Shown here: piece by piece, positions 3,766 through 8,475 of the stretch
Position numbering within the stretch: the first letter of the stretch is position 1
Layout: the number at the start of each line of letters is the position of its first letter
IMG/VR virus record: IMGVR_UViG_3300037504_000365
Location: 1-38,673 of that record
Source of the DNA: a virus
DNA: 38,673 nt
Strand: one strand, 5' to 3'
Translations under genes and position numbers: made by a program
Notes under the pieces: generated by a model
Told to the model about the DNA's origin: nothing
Databases searched by the model: none
What the model saw: only the letters and a program-made list of their open reading frames with translations

Positions 3766-3940
3766 AGCGCCGCCGCCGTGCTGCAACACGACGACGGCTG
3801 TAGGTAGGTTGGCGCTTGGGAGCTACCATACCTCCGTTTCTCATTGGTAGCACTTCCCACACAAAGCGTCAAGCCTCTTTCTATGCGGTTAAATGCCGCC
3901 GTTGGCGGTTGTGTATATACCTTACCAGAGGAGGCCACAG
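3765..3940 (+). terminator. Structured intergenic region: nested hairpin plus a second strong hairpin
   Basis: AAGCGCC (3765-3771) pairs with GGCGCTT (3811-3817), enclosing a GCCGCCGT / ACGACGGC arm with one mismatch. Directly after it, GGGA-GCTACCA (3818-3828) pairs with TGGTAGC (3845-3851) and TCCC (3855-3858) around a 3-nt bulge. A small CCGCC-gtt-GGCGG hairpin follows near 3896. There is no long T-run, so these may be leader structures rather than intrinsic terminators. Confidence 0.45.
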
Positions 3941-4570
3941 ATGGCTCCAAAAAAGGAACAGTCTATGCAGGGAGCAGTTTCAATACCGGCTGCTCGTATC
4001 GAAAAGTTCACCATCACTATTAAGGGTGACACTCCACTTATTGCACATAAGTGGAGTGAAAAGGCCAAAAAAATGATGTTGGACAAACAGATGAAGAAGG
4101 CTAAAACAGCAAAGCCCCCCAAAGATCCGCAACGTGAGTACGAGGAAGCTATGTATCGTTTTCCAGACGGAGGACACGGCTTTCCCGCTCGAGCTTTCAA
4201 GGCTGCGGCAATCAATGCATGCCGACAGGTCGATAATATTACGATGACCGCTGCCAGGGGTGCTTTCCAGGTGTTGGGCGAACTCGTAGACGGCGATATG
4301 CTTGTGCGATTGCGATCTTCGGAACCAGTAATGCGCGAGGACATGGTGCGCATTGGTATGGGAACATCTGATCTCCGCTATCGGCCCATGTACGAGGAAT
4401 GGGAAGCGGATATTACTGTCACTCATAATGCCGACTTCATGTCTCAGGAACAGATTGTCAATCTGTTTAACACGGCTGGTTTCTGTTCGGGTATTGGCGA
4501 ATGGAGACCGTCAAGTCCTAAGTGTTCCGGTCCCTATGGAACATTCCACGTTAAGACAGGAGGAGAATAA
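3941..4570 (+). CDS. Conserved phage replication-region protein, function unknown
   Basis: A 209-residue protein. The ATG at 3941 follows AGAGGAGG at a good distance; an upstream in-frame ATG (3893) lies in hairpin DNA. It contains GDTPLIAHKWSEKAKKMMLD, a basic KKAKTAKPPKDP stretch, FPARAFKAAAINACRQVD, and near the end IVNLFNTAGFCSGIGEWRP. I recognise these as marks of a phage family found in replication and recombination regions, but not its biochemical role. It is coupled to the next gene, and both sit immediately before the pentamer array. Confidence 0.8.
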   Translation: MAPKKEQSMQGAVSIPAARIEKFTITIKGDTPLIAHKWSEKAKKMMLDKQMKKAKTAKPPKDPQREYEEAMYRFPDGGHGFPARAFKAAAINACRQVDNITMTAARGAFQVLGELVDGDMLVRLRSSEPVMREDMVRIGMGTSDLRYRPMYEEWEADITVTHNADFMSQEQIVNLFNTAGFCSGIGEWRPSSPKCSGPYGTFHVKTGGE

Positions 4571-5055
4571 TGAACGTTAGTTGGAAGCAAACCTATGCTT
4601 TTAGAAACGCTGATGCTGAAAAAGTGTATGCGGAACTTAGTAATCTGCCCGGGGCCAAAGTGCCCCGGCGGATTTGGCAGGCTGCTGAAAATCCAGATAT
4701 GGAAATGCATAAATGTTTTACTTGGGATAGAGAAAAGGCAGTTGAAAAATGTTGGGATCAAGAAGCGCGGATGATGTGCAACCATCTTGTTGTTTCCGTT
4801 GAACGACAGAATACCGATCCTGCAAATCCAGAATATCTTACCATCAATGCATTCGTTTCACTTCCAACAGACGACGGCCAACAGTATGTACGTGTAGAAG
4901 ATGGACGGACTGATGAAGTATTGCGTGCACGTATCAGATCGGAAGTCAAGAGCTTCCTATCGAGGGCACAAAGCAAAATGCAAAACTGCGAGGAATACTT
5001 TTCTCAAGAGGAGGTTTCGGGAATCGGAGCGGTACTTCAAGAAATGAGCGGATAA
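4570..5055 (+). CDS. Conserved phage replication-region protein, function unknown
   Basis: A 161-residue protein; the ATG at 4570 overlaps the upstream stop and follows GGAGGAG. A family-type segment is MHKCFTWDREKAVEKCWDQE followed by ARMMCNHLVVSVE. The end is helical (RARIRSEVKSFLSRAQSKM). Such proteins often neighbour recombination genes in phages, but the function is unknown. Its last codons (AGC GGA TAA) are formed by the first linker of the downstream array, so the array begins exactly at this stop codon. Confidence 0.8.
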   Translation: MNVSWKQTYAFRNADAEKVYAELSNLPGAKVPRRIWQAAENPDMEMHKCFTWDREKAVEKCWDQEARMMCNHLVVSVERQNTDPANPEYLTINAFVSLPTDDGQQYVRVEDGRTDEVLRARIRSEVKSFLSRAQSKMQNCEEYFSQEEVSGIGAVLQEMSG

Positions 5056-5690
5056 GTTGTGTTTTGATGCAGCGAGCTTTGTCGAGTCAAGTTACGTTAA
5101 GTTTAGTTTAGTTCCGTCGGGTTGTGTTGCGTTATGTTTCGGCAGATGAGTTTAGTTGAGTCATGTTGTGATGTGCTAAGTCCGGTTATGTTTCGGCCGA
5201 TGTGTTACGTTCGGTCGAGCTATGTTTGGTTATGGTACGTTGTGTTGAGTCGAGCTGCGCTGGGTTGCGTTGTGTTATGGCAGATGCGTTAGGTCGAGTT
5301 CAGTTCTGTTAAGTTAAGTTGCGTTGTGTTAAGTTGCGTCCGTTCCTTACGGGTTCAGCCTGGTTCCGTTTCGTTGGGTTAGGGCGGATGGGTTGCGTTT
5401 CGTTCCGTTGCGGAGGTTACGTTTGGATAAGTTACGTTTTGTTATGTTAAGGCTGATTTATTTGGTTACGTTGCGATTGGTTAAGTTCAGTTAGGTTTCG
5501 TTCTGTTAGGGCTGATATGTTACGTCCCGTTTGGACGGTCAAGTTGTGTTCAGTTGTGTTAAGGCAGACGAGTCAAGTTGAGTCAAGTTGAGATAAGACG
5601 AGTTAAGTTGAGTTTCGTTTGGGCGGATAAGTTGAGTCGCGTTTTGTTTAGTTTTGTCCCGTTCAGCCGAGTTGGGTTAAGTTGCGTTTA
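5047..5690 (+). repeat. Pentamer array (GTTNN)n in nine blocks separated by GGCNGATNN linkers
   Basis: Non-coding. After the linker AGCGGATAA (5047-5055) the sequence reads in steps of five. By hand count about 77 of 113 units begin GTT, another 15 begin GTC, and about 108 begin with G. The last two bases take all 16 combinations. Blocks are 5056-5140, 5150-5194, 5204-5278, 5288-5382, 5392-5450, 5460-5509, 5519-5562, 5572-5621 and 5631-5690. Their lengths are multiples of five except two that are one base short. The linkers lie at 5141, 5195, 5279, 5383, 5451, 5510, 5563 and 5622. The strand is G/T-rich and can form little self-pairing. Confidence 0.95.
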
Positions 5691-5708
5691 AATAATATGG
5701 GAGGGGAT

Positions 5709-6509
5709 GTGCCGCCGAAAGATAGTTATTATTTTCCGCACGATTCAAACGCCCGCCACGATCCCCGTATTAGCGCCATGCGCTGTGAATACGGAAACGT
5801 AAGCTATGGCTGGTACTGGATACTAATAGAGATGATGCGGGAGCAGACCGACTACAGGTTGCGCGTTAATGGCCGGTCGACAAAGGTGTATGCGAAAGAA
5901 CTTGACTGTACGGAGGAAGAGGCACGCCGGTTTATTGATGATTGCATGACAAGCGAAGATGACGGTGGCCTGGGTTTATTTGAGACAGATGGTACGTACT
6001 TTTGGAGTCCGGCACTCCTGCGCCGCATGGACCATTGGGAGGAAGTACGTGCTAAACGCGCTGAAGCCGGTAGACAGGGCGGACGACCTAAAAAGCAAAT
6101 GAAAAGCAATTGCTTTTCAAATGAAAAGCAAAAAAAAGCAATGAAAGGAAAAGAAATAAAAGAAAGTAAAGAAGATAAGAATATAGTGCCGGCGGACCGG
6201 CATGTGTACCACCTTTTTGAGCAGTCTTTTCTAAGCAAAAACACTGACTTCGACTTCAAACGCGAAGGCAAGCACTTGCAGCAGCTTGAGCAGAAGGCGC
6301 TTGCGCGTGACTCGCCAACGGAGTTTGCCAAGCGCGTGCTTGTGACGTTTTGGCGCATGACGCACGGAGGCGACAAGTTTTATAGCAAGCAACCGTTCCT
6401 TCCATCGGCTCTGAACTCTGGCGGCATCTGGCCGCGTGTACTCAAACAGATGGAGAACGAGTCAGCCGCTGATGACTTAGATGACGAGATAGCGAGGGTG
6501 TTTGGATGA
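5709..6509 (+). CDS. DUF4373 (Lin1244/Lin1753-type) replication initiator-like protein
   Basis: Called from the GTG at 5709, giving MPPKDSYYFPHDSNARHDPR, because family members begin this way and GGGAGGGG at 5699-5706 sits in front. An in-frame ATG at 5697 and TTG at 5682 are alternatives. The N-terminal domain (residues 1-115) is the winged-helix DUF4373. A lysine-rich linker follows (about 135-165). The C-terminal part ends FLPSALNSGGIWPRVLKQM, like DnaD-type replisome organisers. It probably binds the phage origin and helps load the helicase. The linker DNA holds iterons. Confidence 0.85.
   Translation: MPPKDSYYFPHDSNARHDPRISAMRCEYGNVSYGWYWILIEMMREQTDYRLRVNGRSTKVYAKELDCTEEEARRFIDDCMTSEDDGGLGLFETDGTYFWSPALLRRMDHWEEVRAKRAEAGRQGGRPKKQMKSNCFSNEKQKKAMKGKEIKESKEDKNIVPADRHVYHLFEQSFLSKNTDFDFKREGKHLQQLEQKALARDSPTEFAKRVLVTFWRMTHGGDKFYSKQPFLPSALNSGGIWPRVLKQMENESAADDLDDEIARVFG
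6091..6141. repeat. AAAAGCAA iterons with a 20-bp palindrome inside the initiator gene
   Basis: AAAAGCAA occurs at 6091, 6102, 6124 and 6134, and inverted at 6110. The 6102 and 6110 copies form the perfect palindrome TGAAAAGCAATTGCTTTTCA (6100-6119). A long A-rich stretch follows to about 6185. Iterons plus an A/T-rich segment within an initiator gene resemble the lambda O arrangement, so this is a candidate origin. The codons encode a lysine-rich linker, so low complexity alone could explain part of it. Confidence 0.6.
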
Positions 6510-7129: not shown

Positions 7130-7380
7130 GAAAAGTGTATCTGCTTCTACGGTATTCAAACAACCGCGACAAGATACTTGAAGTTATCGGCGTGTTTGAC
7201 TCGCAACAGCGGGCGGAAGATATTAAGCGCAGCGCCTTTTCGGAGCAACCCTGGGTAGACATCGAAATGCGTTGTATTAACCGTTGGTATGCCGCCGAGT
7301 CATATAGCAACTACACGAAAGATGCGAAGCGACGGGAGAAACGACGTGTAGCTGAAGCGGAAGATGGCAATGTTAGTTGA
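7126..7380 (+). CDS. Small hypothetical protein
   Basis: Called from the GTG at 7126, which overlaps the upstream stop and follows GGGAGG at about 5 nt. The 84-residue product starts MRKVYLLLRYSNNRDKILEV and has a short beta-alpha pattern, then a basic C-terminus (KDAKRREKRRV). No recognised family. It overlaps the PP-loop gene by 17 nt. Confidence 0.65.
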   Translation: MRKVYLLLRYSNNRDKILEVIGVFDSQQRAEDIKRSAFSEQPWVDIEMRCINRWYAAESYSNYTKDAKRREKRRVAEAEDGNVS

Positions 7381-8143
7381 AAAGCAATTATTTGAAACGG
7401 TTGATAAGGTAAGACTTGCCTGTGATCGGTTGAGGCACTTTGAGCCGCCGGGGGGATACTATTTGGCTTTTTCTGGTGGCAAGGATAGCGTGGTTATCAA
7501 ACATCTCGCTAACATGGCCGGCGTGAAGTACGATGCTCATTATAGTGTGACGACTATAGATCCGCCAGAGCTTGTGTATTTTATCCGCGAGTATCATCCT
7601 TATGTTATTTGGGAATGGCCGGAAATACCTTTTCTGCGAAAACTTGAGACTAAGGGGTTTCCGCATCGGCACCGACGCTGGTGTTGTGAAATGTACAAAG
7701 AAAACGGCGGGAATGGGCGACGCATAATTACTGGAGTACGATGGGGTGAGTCATATAACCGCGGTAAACGCAAGCTATTTGAGCATTGTCTCTCGGGCGG
7801 ATACAAGTCGAAAAATAAGACGTTTGTGAACCCTATTATTGATTGGACAACAGAGGAAGTGTGGGAGTTTATAAAAACATATAATGTCCCCTATTGCAAA
7901 CTTTATGATATAGGATTCCATCGACTTGGATGTTTGTTTTGTCCTATGGCTGGCAAACAAAGGGCTTATGAAGCTCAAATATATCCGTCTTACGTCAAAG
8001 CTTTCATAAAGTCGTTTAAACGCTTGCATTCATCGGGACGTGATAGTGTGAAAAGGTGGGCGAATGGTGAAGAAATGTTTTGGTGGTGGTTAAACGAAGA
8101 TCGTAAAGGCAAAGACGAAAAACAATTGATGTTATTCGAATGA
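7364..8143 (+). CDS. PP-loop ATPase of the PAPS reductase/DndC-like superfamily
   Basis: A 259-residue protein. LAFSGGKDSVVIKHLA (about residues 34-49) is the PP-loop that adenylates substrates. RRWCCEMYKEN near residue 106 and GCLFCPM near residue 191 provide cysteine pairs, as in 3'-phosphoadenylylsulfate reductase relatives and DndC, which can hold an Fe-S cluster. Phages often carry such genes; proposed roles are nucleic-acid sulfur chemistry or nucleotide metabolism. No dnd partners occur here, so DNA phosphorothioation is unproven. Start is ATG 7364 or 7370. Confidence 0.85.
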   Translation: MAMLVEKQLFETVDKVRLACDRLRHFEPPGGYYLAFSGGKDSVVIKHLANMAGVKYDAHYSVTTIDPPELVYFIREYHPYVIWEWPEIPFLRKLETKGFPHRHRRWCCEMYKENGGNGRRIITGVRWGESYNRGKRKLFEHCLSGGYKSKNKTFVNPIIDWTTEEVWEFIKTYNVPYCKLYDIGFHRLGCLFCPMAGKQRAYEAQIYPSYVKAFIKSFKRLHSSGRDSVKRWANGEEMFWWWLNEDRKGKDEKQLMLFE

Positions 8144-8475
8144 AACAACGTGAAGTTGATATACAGTCGAGCATCTTAGAATATCTAAAGTATCGTCATA
8201 TATTTGCACGGCGCAACAACACGGGTGCGGTGTATCGCGGTGGCCGCTACATGGAGTACGGACTCGGGCGCGGTTCGTCGGACATCATCGGCATACTACC
8301 GGATGGGCGCTTCCTGGCTATCGAAGTCAAGCGCAAGGGGTGCAAGCCGACGCCGGCGCAGGACGAGTTCGCCGCGACGGTTGAGCGCAACGGCGGTGTG
8401 TACATACTGGCGCGGTGTGTGGCGGATGTGGATAAAAACTTGCGTCCGTATCTTGATAAAACAACGCGAGTATGA
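8140..8475 (+). CDS. VRR-NUC domain nuclease
   Basis: A 111-residue protein overlapping the upstream stop by ATGA. The PD-(D/E)xK core reads RGSSDIIGILPDGRFLAIEV then KRKGCKPTPAQDEF, with catalytic D, E and K in the usual places. Stand-alone VRR-NUC proteins of this length act on branched or flap DNA, including Holliday junctions, as dimers. It probably processes replication or recombination intermediates for this phage. Confidence 0.88.
   Translation: MKQREVDIQSSILEYLKYRHIFARRNNTGAVYRGGRYMEYGLGRGSSDIIGILPDGRFLAIEVKRKGCKPTPAQDEFAATVERNGGVYILARCVADVDKNLRPYLDKTTRV

Follow-up and report, generated by a model that had tools for sequence, protein, structure and literature searches.

Organisation of the locus

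The window, i.e. the whole stretch of 38,673 nt of viral DNA that was analysed, contains a pentanucleotide array between a pair of genes and a replication initiator gene. The features of this region are as follows:

3893..4570, plus strand: vipr, encoding a RAMP (Cas7-like) protein of 225 aa, phrog_4652 (AF2 model, Foldseek, hhalign)
4570..5055, plus strand: vap-position gene between vipr and the array, 161 aa, phrog_15946 (profile homologs, AF2)
5056..5690, plus strand: very probable VIPR guide-RNA (vrRNA) array of ~109 GTYNN pentamers with 4-nt GGCN slips (parse, lag-5 identity); its runs, from the parse, are:
5056..5140, plus strand: run A, 17 pentamers, the first of them degenerate; begins directly after the vap stop codon
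5141..5194, plus strand: slip GGCA and run B, 10 pentamers, NN: GA TA GA AT GT GT AA CG AT TC
5195..5278, plus strand: slip GGCC and run C, 16 pentamers
5279..5382, plus strand: slip GGCA and run D, 20 pentamers, mid-part degenerate (possibly two guides)
5383..5450, plus strand: slip GGCG and run E, 5 pentamers, slip GGAG and 7 pentamers
5451..5509, plus strand: slip GGCT and run F, 11 pentamers
5510..5562, plus strand: slip GGCT and run G, 4 pentamers, slip GACG and 5 pentamers
5563..5621, plus strand: slip GGCA and run H, 11 pentamers, GA/AA alternating
5622..5690, plus strand: slip GGCG and run I, 13 pentamers, NN: AA GA GC TT TA TT CC CA GA GG AA GC TA (last unit unsure)
5697..6509, plus strand: replication initiator, Lin1244_N, PF14297 (domain match)

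Elsewhere in the window we noted genes for a DUF7448 protein (1177-1623), a PAPS-reductase-domain protein (7364-8143) and a VRR-NUC-like nuclease (8140-8475, score just below the cut-off). The phage proteins matched by the window terminase were less than 60% identical to it, and the best-matching protein among 291 genomes was 35% identical. When 20 kb of the window were compared with phages by megablast, no match was obtained.

The initial annotation had proposed a 5-nt period at 5056-5690, and autocorrelation confirmed it. Lag-5 identity was 0.530 compared with a mean of 0.295 (sd 0.018, max 0.351) in 2000 dinucleotide shuffles (z 13), and was at most 0.35 in every 300-bp window clear of the array. 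The local parsing score was 315, versus 18 +/- 7 for 300 shuffles. Parsing yielded about 109 GTYNN pentamers, of which 77 began with GTT, 14 with GTC and 105 with G, and the NN used 16 of 16 dinucleotides, in agreement with the earlier hand counts. The second base of the fixed triplet was T in 93, A in 15, C in 7 and G in 1 case (n=116). Three positions are thus held and two are free, as had been noted, which is in line with selection on a nucleic acid that is read in steps of five bases and not with a recent tandem expansion.

The array does not run in fives without interruption, as first described, since 4-nt GGCN units shift its phase at eight places (5141, 5195, 5279, 5383, 5451, 5510, 5563 and 5622). 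Each of these slips is followed by GAYNN, and together they cut the array into runs, mostly of ~10-20 pentamers; GGAG at 5412 and GACG at 5534 are probably further slips. That no gene fits the array still stands: the ORF list contains no fitting ORF of at least 60 aa, and each of the three plus frames has 8-14 stops within the array. The RNA had been called poorly self-pairing, but it folds slightly better than its own shuffles (z -2.4). The array showed neither a constant 3' tail nor a convincing terminator or ribozyme, and Rfam gave no match. CRISPR-type identical repeats with spacers were not found in the window, where the repeats seen were period-5 arrays and short repeats.

The genes upstream of the array

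The vipr gene lies two genes upstream of the array; an internal ATG at 3941 is its probable translation start. An AlphaFold2 model of the protein (pLDDT 85) was compared with the PDB by Foldseek. The top 50 matches were all CRISPR RAMPs (best E 2.4e-6), comprising chains of Csm3, other Csm subunits, type VII Cas7, Cmr6, Cas6 and Cas7-11, and VIA-align gave a Z of 11 to Csm3. The family is characterised by an RRM core and glycine-rich loop with a conserved GxGxxRP..GxxGxF motif. Its profile (A1) aligned with the RAMP protein ALH47069.1 of Escherichia phage SUSP1 (hhalign prob 99.9, E 1.3e-31), whose gene has GGTNN and GGCNN arrays on its flanks. From its family and the flanking GGTNN arrays we infer that ALH47069.1 is the published SUSP1 Vipr. 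The window protein is 41-43% identical to Mycobacterium and Gordonia phage proteins, and the Mycobacterium ones (42%) adjoin GGCNN arrays.

VIPR is a viral RNA-guided system that was presented in bioRxiv in April and June 2026 and proposed as an ancestor of CRISPR effectors (PMC13142463). According to the main text, it consists of a RAMP protein and vrRNAs of 9-16 YNNGG units, the NN of which pair with double-stranded DNA, skip one base at each step (every third target base) and repress transcription (PMC13142463). Competing phages are given there as the natural targets and SUSP1 as the model phage (PMC13142463). The main text also distinguishes seven types with 'GGY/NN motifs, or a related consensus', names staggered arrays, and describes accessory genes vap1-6 and an invariant structured 3' tail on each vrRNA (PMC13142463). 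The initial annotation knew of no described element of this kind; one was described in this 2026 publication.

Profile searches with the protein of the vap-position gene revealed 82 distinct homologous sequences, most of which are encoded at the corresponding position behind vipr in relatives. Foldseek of its AF2 model (pLDDT 91) against the PDB gave no significant match and only a weak HTH-type or winged-helix DNA-binding resemblance. Neither this protein nor that of vipr had a match above cut-off in Pfam or NCBIfam. The initial annotation had placed the array between two replication-region genes and the initiator; the downstream gene does encode a Lin1244-type initiator, but the upstream pair encodes a RAMP protein and its usual neighbour.

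Arrays and vipr genes in other loci

A search of IMG/VR for eight consecutive GTTNN units revealed at least 119 stretches, most of them simple repeats and about two dozen long arrays with varied NN. Among these stretches, a vipr homolog was present in 25 of 38 varied loci versus 2 of 81 simple-repeat loci (Fisher p 4e-14). The pattern recurs in other phages that share flanking genes, and so passes the refutation test set in the initial annotation. The initiator family of the window is encoded in a single pattern-hit locus. For 13 varied arrays, mostly of low complexity, no Vipr was detectable even in the whole record. Four of these, in L003 (7962-11121), L075 (5250-5375), L040 (11625-11736) and L073 (9505-9613), look like true GTTNN arrays and may represent fragments, distant Viprs or satellites that use Vipr in trans. 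By eye, L072 and some other loci display a hairpin-like sequence and then T's after the array, which fits transcription in the GUUNN sense.

Several of the loci displayed additional features. In L098 (900-2700), a 331-kb jumbo-phage contig, GTTNN guide arrays are interrupted at intervals of about 140 nt by a hairpin, ACAACACC..GTGTTGT, and behind it a tRNA-like minihelix, whose T-loop consensus GGTTCGAYYCCG is present in 9 perfect copies (chance 0.1). Neither ARAGORN nor Rfam called the minihelix, which may serve for processing by RNase P/Z between guides; the main text of PMC13142463 names no layout of this type. A 139-kb viral contig with a GTTNN array and vipr also contains a HEARO RNA (L046, 9984-10218), and a Lachnospiraceae MAG carries two tandem vipr genes (L132 / G017 contig C64, 17123-18781). 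A GTTAA-rich simple repeat, apparently with the same flanks and with varying copy number, occurs in many isolate prophage contigs (L002, L008, L020, L029, L035, L044, L054, L066, L071, L089, L009, L115); by the tests applied it is unrelated to VIPR.

Searches with the window protein and two relatives confirmed 427 relatives in IMG/VR, of which 80 were retained; six more came from genomes, among them Ancylobacter, Streptomyces and Lachnospiraceae. Of the resulting 86 loci, 81 contain a G[G/T]YNN array on the sense strand, in most cases one gene downstream of vipr, which is also its position in the window, and four of the five array-less loci end within 600 bp of the gene. All of these arrays consist mainly of GGY units, with GGCA, GGCC or GGCT slips, and GGY arrays with such slips are also present in Mycobacterium phages, Gordonia phages and a cyanophage. 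Very large GGY arrays, with more than 400 pentamers in one locus, were seen in L213/L214 (1819-6368). In a phylogenetic tree the window groups with 14 GGY members in one clade (support 93/96), where no other member is GTY. Five changes are required to explain the distribution of GTY and GGY on the tree, and well-supported branches force at least two of these. Compared with the main text of PMC13142463, a GTY-consensus array alone within a GGY clade is new here.

Codon signature and targets

If the targets are coding sequences, the NN are expected to resemble codon positions 1 and 2 because the wobble base is skipped. The window NN fitted sense codon positions 1-2 with +8.1 nats over the frame mixture, while all other frames were negative (p 5e-5). 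For 22 GTY loci together the signature came to +86.5, versus -71 to -253 for the other frames. It agreed in most single GTY loci and was below significance in L111, L114, L079 and L085.

Comparison of all guides with all loci for exact matches of 8 consecutive NN revealed 107 guide-target pairs at a 1-nt skip versus 0-4 at skips of 0, 2, 3 and 4; matches in loci that had been fetched with a guide pattern were not counted as evidence. Much of the excess at skip 1 comes from one guide of the near-identical loci L179 and L185 against ~50 homologous vipr genes, and the independent guides with credible targets number ~5-6. In 78 of 119 vipr genes, the G-loop codons agree with the L179/L185 guide (5231-5285) in at least 16 of 18 bases, whereas the vipr of these loci themselves agrees in 15 and is altered at the guide site (V-G-C, AGA for Arg). 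By sequence, this is a predicted anti-VIPR guide with self-avoidance. The run 3 guide of L140 corresponds with 10 of 10 NN to the codons of DPPYNVDYEG, the catalytic motif of DNA methyltransferases, in a 465-aa methyltransferase-like ORF (L090 5377, minus strand). Guides of L198 matched a 192-aa ORF of L189 at 9 of 9 NN and the vap genes of five relatives at 19 of 20 bases. Partial self-matches of guides in their own loci showed a weak general excess (0.096 +/- 0.034 NN). The predicted reading with a 1-nt skip is shown directly by targets in GGY relatives and indirectly, by codon statistics, in the window and the other GTY loci.

Guide I and the replication initiator

The NN of run I (guide I) decode to K/N-D/E-A-F/L-Y-F/L-P-H/Q-D/E-G-K/N-A, with the last unit unsure, and this sequence resembles an N-terminal motif of Lin1244-type replication initiators. 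The best 1-nt-skip site in the window's own genome lies in frame in its own initiator, in the codons from 5718, with 9 of 13 NN and 19 of 26 bases matching. One of 1500 shuffles was as good, which corresponds to approximately p 0.005 with seven guides tested. Initiators of the same family matched better, namely that of L254 (22 of 26 bases; L254 was fetched by half of the guide, and the independent half matches at 6 of 10 bases) and that of a Porphyromonas phage (21 of 26 bases; this phage was fetched by protein similarity). These matches are suggestive of a guide aimed at the replication initiator genes of rival phages. The own initiator, which differs from guide I at four NN, would then probably be a protected self version of the target type.

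Our searches found no perfect natural target of any window guide. Exact 8- or 9-NN scans of IMG/VR gave 0-13 matches each for guides C, I and B and the right half of I, with extensions that were not significant except for the L254 initiator, and likewise 0-13 matches without significant extensions for GTY guides shared between phages (L048/L070, L048/L112). The core of guide C had 0 matches in IMG/VR, guides B and I had no convincing extension there, and guide I had 0 matches in 391 genomes of one class, that of a Lachnospiraceae MAG.

Interpretation of the array

Taken together, the array at 5056-5690 is very probably the guide-RNA locus of a VIPR system. Its transcription on the plus strand would give RNAs of repeating GUY-NN units. 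Judging from the SUSP1 mechanism and the shared fold, each pentamer along the RNA would be occupied by one RAMP copy that holds GUY and presents NN. The NN of one run, from slip to slip, would jointly specify a DNA target as NN-skip-NN-skip, each run presumably forming one guide and each NN representing codon positions 1 and 2 with the wobble base ignored. Binding, as published for SUSP1, would block transcription of competing-phage genes here as well, and the vap-position protein probably assists. The last guide probably targets the replication initiator genes of rivals, the own initiator differing at four NN.

The initial annotation favoured a replication origin or a site at which an ssDNA-binding or annealing protein of the phage enters or loads. 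The G/T-rich array strand and the initiator gene just downstream are compatible with such a site, yet we consider it improbable: the linked protein is a RAMP and not an annealing protein, the array follows vipr and vap in relatives, the window initiator family occurs in only one pattern-hit locus, and a loading site does not predict NN that follow codon positions 1-2. GC skew, which had been suggested as a check for an origin, is positive on both sides of the array without a switch. An RNA sponge or multivalent site for a ring or filament protein, with the free bases as mere spacers, has a similarly small probability. The triplets read by TRAP lie two or three bases apart, and both the five-base step and the recurrent link to one RNA-binding-type protein would suit a TRAP-like partner. 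Spacer bases should, however, be neutral or biased towards lack of structure, whereas the NN follow codon positions 1-2 in most GTY loci and those of relatives give perfect matches to conserved gene motifs.

Simple (GTTAA)n and similar arrays make up many of the pattern matches, as expected if the array were a degenerate pentanucleotide microsatellite. This reading is refuted by NN that are diverse while the frame is held, with all 16 dinucleotides next to a triplet maintained over 109 units; ordered slips, the codon signature and the presence of a RAMP gene in only 2 of 81 simple arrays also argue against it, and its probability is negligible.

Under the VIPR reading, the guides appear to aim at conserved protein motifs, as suggested by the vipr G-loop, the methyltransferase DPPY and the initiator YFPHD. 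Skipping the wobble base would defeat silent escape mutations in such motifs. A more tentative proposal, which we hold to be somewhat less probable than its negation, is that GTY-reading is a separate, repeatedly evolved Vipr specificity. The window lineage would have switched from GGY to GTY and kept GGCN between guides, so that G at the second base now serves as a boundary flag only, and its last guide would attack the initiators of rivals with the same replicon type and spare its own.

Recognised in raw sequence and independently of the published work, the window locus lends support to the VIPR code without assuming it. As the fixed triplet is not universal, GGY and GTY systems provide natural pairs of close proteins for locating the triplet-reading residues, and the GTTNN pattern is a cheap metagenome probe for further VIPR systems.

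Comparison with known systems

As far as the main text of PMC13142463 describes it, VIPR type II of Escherichia phage SUSP1 is similar to the window locus in its RAMP homolog, its gene in the accessory position, its phage-encoded nature and its array of pentamers that combine a fixed triplet with variable NN. The 1-nt skip is also shared, here on statistical grounds and directly in relatives. In contrast to SUSP1, the window has the triplet GTY instead of GGY, an apparently different accessory gene, and one continuous array with 4-nt slips in place of separate vrRNAs that each have a structured tail. The window array does not follow the strict GGY triplet, and we count GTY under the 'related consensus' in the wording of PMC13142463. 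Compared by the same main text, the staggered, overlapping vrRNA arrays of VIPR are likewise continuous and tail-less, and close relatives of the window protein share this layout with GGCA slips; the window again differs in its GTY triplet. Unannotated loci of Mycobacterium phage Quico and Gordonia phage ODay encode Vipr proteins with 41-43% identity and have adjoining G[G]YNN arrays with GGCA slips, but their triplets are GGC/GGT, and in Quico the array lies upstream of vipr. The RAMP fold of the window protein is common to Class 1 CRISPR-Cas effectors (Csm3, type VII Cas7). Unlike these, the window has no CRISPR repeats and no other cas genes recognised nearby, and it is characterised by a 5-nt unit and non-contiguous pairing. 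On balance, the array very probably encodes VIPR guides built on an altered fixed triplet. It would represent a variation on a type of element that was described only very recently, rather than a loading site.
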